From NCBI RefSeq assembly GCF_012427705.1, contig NZ_CP048602.1, positions 744,001 to 808,000 of the forward strand: 64,000 nt of DNA. Reading direction: 5' to 3'. This DNA is from Vreelandella piezotolerans. GTDB lineage: Bacteria > Pseudomonadota > Gammaproteobacteria > Pseudomonadales > Halomonadaceae. Made by a program: the position numbers and the translations under genes. The notes under the pieces are model-generated. The model worked only from the letters and a program-made list of their open reading frames with translations. It was not told the origin of the DNA and searched no databases. Numbering within the stretch: the first letter of the stretch is position 1; each line of letters begins with the position of its first letter. Shown here one piece after another: positions 43,131 to 57,402 of the stretch.

Positions 43131-47039
<3,909 letters not shown>

Positions 47040-47060: not shown

Positions 47061-47103
47061 TGTAAGAGATCTCTCAAAAATTTGTAAGAGATCTCTTACA
47101 AAT
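47061..47103 (+). promoter_or_regulatory. GacA box (upstream activating sequence) with a second degenerate copy
   Basis: A perfect TGTAAG-N6-CTTACA palindrome (47083-47100), symmetric out to 24 bp (47080-47103), is the known GacA/UvrY binding signature. A copy sharing the first 14 bases (TGTAAGAGATCTCT) lies at 47061-47074, 22 nt upstream, with a degenerate right half. Both precede the predicted small RNA. Confidence 0.85.
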
Positions 47104-47189
47104 GCCGACGACATTCGCTCGGAACCGTGTAGGAAAAAGCGAATTTTTTCACTAATCTTAATTTAATTCGTTGATATTTAAGATTTTTT

Positions 47190-47440
47190 GTCTGAAGGGC
47201 GAGCCGGGGAGGCTCGCTCTTTGTATTTTCTGCTGGCTTGTGAAGTTAGCCTGTTCTGCCACAATGCACACAGGACAAGGGGAGGCAAGGATGCTTCAGG
47301 CAGGATGCAACGGGATGTAAGTAGGTGCGCCGGGTGACACAGTGATGTGAGCCCTGGCAAGGACGTCACCTAAGGAGGTTGACACAGGGAGTGGTCAGAG
47401 GAAGTGCTTGGAGCGGGCGGCCTACGGGCCGCCTTTTTTT
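47190..47440 (+). ncRNA. CsrB/RsmY/RsmZ-like CsrA-sequestering small RNA
   Basis: No reading frame explains this stretch, but it has what a Gac/Rsm decoy RNA needs: a GacA box about 90 nt upstream, eleven GGA motifs between 47208 and 47412 and a strong terminator at its end. The GGAs start at 47208, 47273, 47281, 47289, 47303, 47313, 47361, 47374, 47388, 47400 and 47410; several are in AGGA or GGGA contexts. The first sits in the loop of an 11-bp hairpin (47195-47221: GGCGAGCC-GGGGA-GGCTCGC). Such RNAs titrate CsrA, whose gene lies at 57214. The 5' end is uncertain: transcription could start near 47190, or near 47272 (TTGTGA-N16-CACAAT upstream), in which case the first hairpin would be the eno terminator. 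Confidence 0.82.
47416..47440 (+). terminator. Terminator of the small RNA
   Basis: A 7-bp stem GGCGGCC / GGCCGCC with a TACG loop is followed by seven T residues (47434-47440). This is a strong intrinsic terminator on the plus strand. Confidence 0.92.
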
Positions 47441-47535: not shown

Positions 47536-47859
47536 TCAACGCTCGAGTTTTTCCAGCTTACCCGTTTTGCCATCCCACTCTTCTGCATCGGGCAGAGGGT
47601 CTTTCTTCTCGGCAATATTGGGCCATACTTCGGCCAGCTCCGCGTTGATCTCGATGAAAGGCTCCTGGCCATCGGGCAGCTCATCCTCAGAGAATATCGC
47701 CTCAGCAGGACACTCTGGCTCACACAGCGCGCAGTCAATGCACTCGTCTGGGTGAATGACCAGGAAGTTGGGGCCTTCGTAGAAGCAGTCGACCGGGCAA
47801 ACTTCCACACAGTCGGTGTATTTGCATTGGATGCAGTTCTCGGTAACGACAAACGTCAT
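47536..47859 (-). CDS. fdxA: 7Fe ferredoxin FdxA
   Basis: This 107-aa ferredoxin carries one [3Fe-4S] and one [4Fe-4S] cluster and moves electrons at low potential. The N-terminal Cys set [19 protein letters not shown] and the second set [13 protein letters not shown] match the Azotobacter FdI-type pattern, in which the residue at the fourth position of the first site is Asp (TDC). The C-terminal extension with [19 protein letters not shown] is typical of the family. It has its own terminator and lies downstream of mutS on the same strand, as in Pseudomonas. Confidence 0.95.
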
Positions 47860-57213: not shown

Positions 57214-57402
57214 ATGCTCATCCTAACCCGCCGCGTTGGCGAAACGCTGATGATCGGTGATGAAATCACCGTCACAGTATTAGGTGTGAAAGGTAATCAA
57301 GTGCGCATTGGTGTGAATGCACCAAAAGATGTCGCGGTTCACCGTGAAGAGATCTATCAGCGCATTCAGCGTGAACGTAATAGTGAAAGCGAAGCAGAAT
57401 AA
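57214..57402 (+). CDS. csrA: Carbon storage regulator CsrA/RsmA
   Basis: This 62-aa dimeric RNA-binding protein binds GGA motifs in mRNA leaders and in decoy RNAs. The sequence [45 protein letters not shown] is full CsrA, with Arg6 and the GVNAPK...VHREE RNA-binding strand, including Arg44. AAGGAG lies before the ATG at 57214. That AAGGAG is itself a GGA site, so autoregulation is possible. Its predicted antagonist RNA lies at 47190-47440. Confidence 0.98.

Follow-up and report, generated by a model that had tools for sequence, protein, structure and literature searches.

The RsmX and RsmY RNAs of pseudomonads are GGA-rich decoys whose production depends on GacA, and the CsrB and CsrC RNAs of enterobacteria are encoded in a gene neighbourhood which differs from the eno–fdxA interval considered here. 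The regulatory regions of csrB and csrC are described in PMC4682653: csrB has a putative IHF site between its UvrY box and its promoter, the box being placed at −182/−181 in Salmonella, and csrC has a TGTAAG half-site that ends 16 bp upstream of the box.

In this study we analyzed a 64-kb stretch of DNA of Vreelandella piezotolerans (referred to below as the window), in which a GGA-rich non-coding RNA candidate is located between eno and fdxA. We consider it, with a probability of approximately 0.92, to be a CsrA-sequestering small RNA of this Vreelandella/Halomonas bacterium.

As with csrB, the palindromic box of the window RNA lies near −180 and is accompanied by an IHF-like site, and the half-site 16 bp upstream of the box is shared with csrC (PMC4682653). 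It is less than half as long as the CsrB model (RF00018; 356 positions), which had no match reaching its gathering score in this genome, while the Escherichia coli control exceeded the cut-off. The comparison with RsmX and RsmY consisted of the Rfam scans of the window stretch, from which both families were absent. With permissive thresholds, Rfam returned sub-threshold matches to other families only (mir-255 on the GacA palindrome, the L20 leader and others), and no Rfam decoy family was matched, as had been anticipated in the original prediction.

The described RNA that occupies a corresponding place is RsmZ. Its Rfam family (RF00166, PrrB_RsmZ) gave no match at the gathering score in the V. 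piezotolerans genome; it exceeded the cut-off in all ten genomes picked from family f21 (taken to be the Pseudomonadaceae), which were chosen by hand, nine of them for having a weak match to R1, our covariance model of the window RNA. RsmZ lies beside fdxA-mutS, and convergent with it, in 8 of these ten genomes (8 of 11 hits), i.e. in the same place and direction relative to these genes as the window RNA, and a perfect GacA box is present upstream in five of the eight loci. The RsmZ of locus L126 has the same 3′ end as the window RNA, GAGCGGGCGG...CCGCC followed by a T run. The two RNAs, both GGA-rich, differ in length (133 positions in the RsmZ model, approximately 170 nt for the window RNA) and in the gene on the far side, which is eno for the window RNA and, for RsmZ, a gene recognised by eye in L124 that we take to be rpoS.

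The best R1 match fell on the RsmZ place in all 11 loci tested; RF00166 exceeded its cut-off in ten of them and fell short of it in one. The R1 scores on RsmZ were 10.7–23.2 bits, and an unrelated terminator in the V. piezotolerans genome scored 22.9 bits. Positional orthology of the window RNA and RsmZ is well supported; the two may also be homologous in sequence, for which R1 scores no better than that of an unrelated terminator are suggestive only.

Extent of the RNA and its upstream region

The upstream neighbour of the RNA is eno (enolase; 45750..47039, + strand; Pfam Enolase_N/C), and downstream there is a convergent ferredoxin gene (47536..47859, − strand; Pfam Fer4 and DUF3470), which we take to be fdxA. 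The presumed protein partner is encoded by csrA (57214..57402, + strand; Pfam CsrA, PF02599, the single match in the genome), approx. 9.8 kb from the RNA, a distance that probably means little. The original prediction had the RNA act on the csrA gene; the RNA would be expected to act on the CsrA protein instead.

Several features claimed at the outset were recovered. The eleven GGA motifs are present at 47208–47412 (205 nt), and among the 251-nt segments of the window, on both strands, 47190–47440 is the only one to reach this number. A convincing reading frame, said to be missing, is indeed absent: stop codons occur in many aligned rows in every frame and the lengths vary modulo 3, so a coding gene is unlikely. 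The strong intrinsic terminator was located at 47415..47440 (+ strand) by terminator scan, consensus structure and covariation. A perfect GacA/UvrY box, TGTAAG-N6-CTTACA, had been placed upstream, and was found at 47083..47100 (+ strand); it lies with its centre about 180 bp from the probable start of the RNA, and 177 bp before a −10-like motif.

This box is preceded by an imperfect one with two mismatches (47061..47078, + strand), detected by motif scan and conserved in the genus alignments, whose TGTAAG half-site (47061–47066) is separated from the perfect box by 16 bp. A putative IHF-like site (47164..47176, + strand) matches the IHF consensus YAA-N4-TTGATW, and IHF might bind there; of 63 relatives, 24 have YAA-N4-TTG at a distance of 105–111 nt upstream of the RNA core.

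The position of the 5′ end called for a choice between two readings. The original prediction let the RNA run from 47190 and take in an 11-bp hairpin with a GGA in its loop. This hairpin exists (47193–47223, loop GGGGA), it is located downstream of the GacA boxes, and most of the 46 loci of the genus that were examined have a hairpin at this position. However, together with its T-rich tail (47193..47231, + strand) it was scored as a terminator, its loop is variable among relatives and contains GGA in only 4 of the 46 loci, and a hairpin resembling it (86% over 37 nt; G000:C1:3812555) follows another gene. That copy, considered as a second decoy, was rejected, since it follows another gene and is terminator-like.

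Moreover, a conserved promoter-like block, TTG...CTGCCACAATG, is located 3′ of the hairpin. It comprises a −35-like element, TTGTGA (47238..47243, + strand), of which the TTG is conserved, and a −10-like element, CACAAT (47260..47265, + strand), within the conserved CTGCCACAATG part. A strict sigma-70 scan yielded no promoter here; the lack of a strict match is common for activator-dependent promoters. Both the promoter call and the proposed start near 47270 are based on conservation. Such a start puts the centre of the perfect box at about −180, near the −182/−181 reported for Salmonella csrB (PMC4682653).

The hairpin between the boxes and the promoter-like block is most likely the eno terminator, and on this reading the RNA begins near 47270. 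Its most likely extent is thus 47270..47440 (+ strand; approx. 171 nt, with the start placed to within a few nucleotides), as delimited by R1, covariation and GGA conservation. The 11-bp hairpin and its GGA then fall outside the decoy RNA, within which 10 of the 11 motifs remain, and we regard transcription from near 47190 as unlikely.

Conserved structure and GGA motifs

The structure was examined in two alignments. The first (A1) was a sequence-only MAFFT alignment derived from 49 loci downstream of eno, from which two misaligned loci (L053 and L055) and three duplicates were removed, and six of the remaining 44 (L012, L021, L024, L026, L052 and L054) were left out, leaving 38. RNAalifold predicted 35 base pairs in A1, and two-sided changes were observed in 15 pairs, compared with 3–7 in slid controls. 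The second alignment (A2) contained 63 family loci, selected by hand from those retrieved and fitted to the covariance model; it leans towards its own structure, and in it 95.6% of the cells were paired and two-sided changes occurred in 30 of the 35 pairs (slid controls, 8–11), a number equalled by none of 500 shuffles. A single-sequence fold of the 171-nt RNA gave a z score of −1.59, with 13 of 200 shuffles as good, and thermodynamic folding alone would therefore be weak evidence.

The consensus structure comprises four hairpins ahead of the terminator, all on the + strand. Hairpin 1 (47282..47297) has the loop AAGGAU. Hairpin 2 (47323..47371) has a long stem, interrupted by an asymmetric internal loop that contains AAGGA; the GGA at 47361 is kept in all 63 relatives. 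Hairpin 3 (47380..47397) carries AGGGA in its apical loop and shows two-sided changes in all four of its pairs, and hairpin 4 (47406..47414) is a small stem over the UGG of a GGA; hairpins 1, 2 and 4 are likewise indicated by covariation. The count of GGA in loops that the original prediction had proposed gave 8 of 10 motifs wholly unpaired in the consensus.

Ten GGA motifs occur in 168 nt, and the mean of dinucleotide shuffles was 6.2, with 44 of 2000 reaching ten. The excess over the RNA's own G-rich composition is modest, and it is therefore the comparative evidence that carries the case for a decoy. The identity to the window RNA was 0.871 in GGA columns and 0.639 in other non-terminator columns (0.906 in the terminator). 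A loss of motifs among relatives, named beforehand as an observation that would count against a decoy, was not seen, each of the 63 relatives having 6–13 GGA. It is conservation and covariation that raise the GGA signal above chance.

These results also bear on the idea that the molecule is a GacA-regulated, structured RNA that base-pairs with mRNAs in the manner of Hfq-type sRNAs, its GGA motifs being incidental. A small RNA with an intrinsic terminator is the general form of such sRNAs, but the higher conservation of GGA columns outside the terminator, the mostly unpaired state of the motifs and their number in the long form found in one genus (34–40 in g6; see below) make this very improbable. 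Least probable of all is that there is no separate gene but an eno 3′ untranslated region or read-through product, or a cis element of fdxA: the RNA does share its strand with eno, which ends approx. 230 nt upstream of it, but a terminator separates them, the RNA has conserved upstream activator sites of its own, and fdxA is convergent to it.

Distribution of the RNA and association with GacA

Within the genus, 79 of 82 genomes gave a match in a DNA search, at least one of them (G045) through the GacA palindrome only. Of 50 loci of the genus, 49 contain eno, the exception (L060) being this palindrome match of G045, which lacks the RNA. All 27 named records sharing a 34-base piece of the RNA belong to Vreelandella/Halomonas. 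The genus alignments (30 loci; 24 with diverged loci included) revealed conserved tandem boxes, the TTG...CTGCCACAATG block, and the GGA-rich core with its terminator.

At E ≤ 0.001, R1 had matches in 236 of the 275 genomes of the family; eight of these matches were weak (E of 1e-6 or more, i.e. at chance level) and were excluded. Strong matches (E ≤ 1e-9) were obtained in 228 of the 275 genomes, representing 15 of 24 genera. The suggestion that eno-fdxA could serve as a synteny marker was borne out, as eno adjoins the RNA in 72 of 72 family loci and fdxA in 71 (in the exception, L073, the contig ends). The other 47 genomes gave no strong match; among them, genera g14, g16 and g21 have GacA, and may hold a diverged form of the RNA. 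One genome of the same genus (G033, 99% complete) encodes GacA and CsrA and gave no R1 match even with laxer filters.

Outside the family, the best R1 score among 390 order-level genomes was 33.1 bits. Thirteen weak out-of-family matches were retrieved and rejected as homologs: they lacked eno, fdxA and mutS, contained 0–4 GGA and no GacA box, and were attributed to chance; none of the thirteen reaches an Rfam decoy family. The best one (genome G319) coincides with a sub-threshold RF00166 match (25.7 bits vs 44), which counts against reading it as chance. G319, a member of family f2, has two sub-threshold matches to the RsmZ model, at C1:1822741-1822857 (L129) and C2:30110-30262 (L131), one of which adjoins fdxA-mutS; it is possible that this genome holds a further decoy in the same slot. 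In V. piezotolerans itself, a weak R1 match at G000:C1:3114200 was considered as a second RNA and rejected, there being little in it beyond a similar terminator. Phage records gave no match to the RNA, and one 30-base pattern had no exact counterpart in viral contigs.

The V. piezotolerans genome encodes a GacA/UvrY ortholog over the curated cut-off and one csrA. A GacA box with up to two mismatches was found within 330 nt upstream of the RNA in 49 of the 63 relatives, at a similar position across genera. The association of box and activator was analyzed in 74 loci, i.e. the 63 of A2 and 11 added to cover g6 and the genera lacking GacA, with an ortholog defined as an NF007018 match at E ≤ 1e-50. 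Boxes with up to two mismatches, 100–800 nt upstream, were present in 54 of 59 loci with GacA vs 1 of 15 without (Fisher p 3.5e-10, which is overstated, because the loci are not phylogenetically independent and the losses fall into about four lineages). Of the five remaining loci with GacA, four have a box with three mismatches near the usual place and the fifth has one with four. In the GacA-lacking genomes the best remaining matches (1e-28 or weaker to about 1e-31) are comparable to that of a paralog in G123, a genome that has GacA. One genome (G010) has an intact box and no GacA ortholog detectable by this definition. In locus L197 (G031:C1:2971172-2971797) a GacA-like gene appears as two overlapping segments that lie in different frames.

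Seven other boxes with at most one mismatch occur in the V. piezotolerans genome, and are followed by at most 6 GGA per 200 nt, so that no second decoy was found by this route. The sole other perfect box of the genome (L034, 1501–1518; G000:C1:3285784-3285801) lies where type VI secretion genes for a VipA/TssB-like and an Hcp-like protein diverge, and no GGA-rich region follows it. Its position suggests direct GacA control of the type VI secretion cluster.

No GacA ortholog was found in genera g10 (10 of 10 genomes), g9 (2 of 2) and g18 (1 of 1) or in genome G141, and the box is gone. In 14 loci without GacA and box, the RNA is nevertheless kept beside eno, with 6–11 GGA: L100, L101, L102, L156, L159, L205–L207, L210 and L211 of g10, L213 and L214 of g9, L161 of g18, and L158 of G141. 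No fdxA was detected in the vicinity of the RNA in either g9 locus. The retention of the RNA after loss of GacA and box implies that another signal should drive it. Immediately ahead of the RNA core, close to the 5′ end of the RNA, three of the g10 loci (L100, L101 and L102) contain an inverted repeat of the form GATCAG...CTGATC; this may represent a new operator, or else a hairpin at the 5′ end.

A different change was observed in all six genomes of g6 (L162, L163, L208, L209, L212 and L220), where the RNA, with its start placed by a −10-like motif, is 702–721 nt long and contains 34–40 GGA; it is thus enlarged about fourfold, and about twice as long as the CsrB model. Five of these loci were examined further: each has a box with no more than one mismatch, 179–181 bp before the −10-like motif, and lacks internal runs of five or more T. 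Plain shuffles of these sequences average 22–24 GGA, and in one of the five loci (L162) at least 1 of 300 equals the observed count. GGA columns have 0.911 identity vs 0.810 elsewhere. Two of the five loci contain stop-free runs of 142 and 156 codons, but in the other three the runs are 74–92 codons long, and the g6 RNA is therefore not read as coding. Three g6 loci (L216, L217 and L218) contain a second, weak R1 match, which bears GGA and ends in a terminator-like hairpin, with no GacA box in the locus. On balance, we lean towards the interpretation that the decoy lineage of the Halomonas family is the positional ortholog of RsmZ, survives loss of its activator and changes size.

Proposed function of the RNA

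The features expected of a decoy RNA are found together at this locus: many, mostly unpaired GGA motifs in a non-coding, structured RNA with an intrinsic terminator, in a genome that encodes CsrA and GacA/UvrY. The covariance-model homologs, the conserved GGA and the boxes all speak for the class originally proposed, that of a GacA-activated, GGA-rich CsrA decoy, and the conclusion that this RNA is a new member of the CsrB/RsmZ class, specific to the family and undetected by the Rfam models, is well supported.

We propose that phosphorylated GacA would bind the tandem box far upstream, and that a bend at the IHF-like site may bring it to the weak promoter at 47238–47265. An RNA of approx. 171 nt would then be made, ending at the terminator (47415–47440), whose conserved hairpins and linkers would present about ten GGA sites to CsrA dimers. 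Binding of CsrA would in turn relieve its repression of the mRNAs that it controls.

The R1 model annotates the RNA in most genomes of this family, whose Halomonas-type members are used for making ectoine and bioplastics. In the open-access literature we found no paper describing this RNA, and the main text of PMC5568370 makes no mention of Halomonas, Chromohalobacter, Oceanospirillales or Marinobacter. According to a 2020 review (PMC7366521), the Gac system of H. anticariensis controls quorum sensing, exopolysaccharide and biofilm, and a table in it lists the CsrA-antagonist RNA of this species as 'Unknown'. The RNA described here is a candidate for that antagonist, with a named locus. Finally, the lineages that lack GacA and keep the decoy represent a natural experiment, which may reveal what else can drive the release of CsrA.
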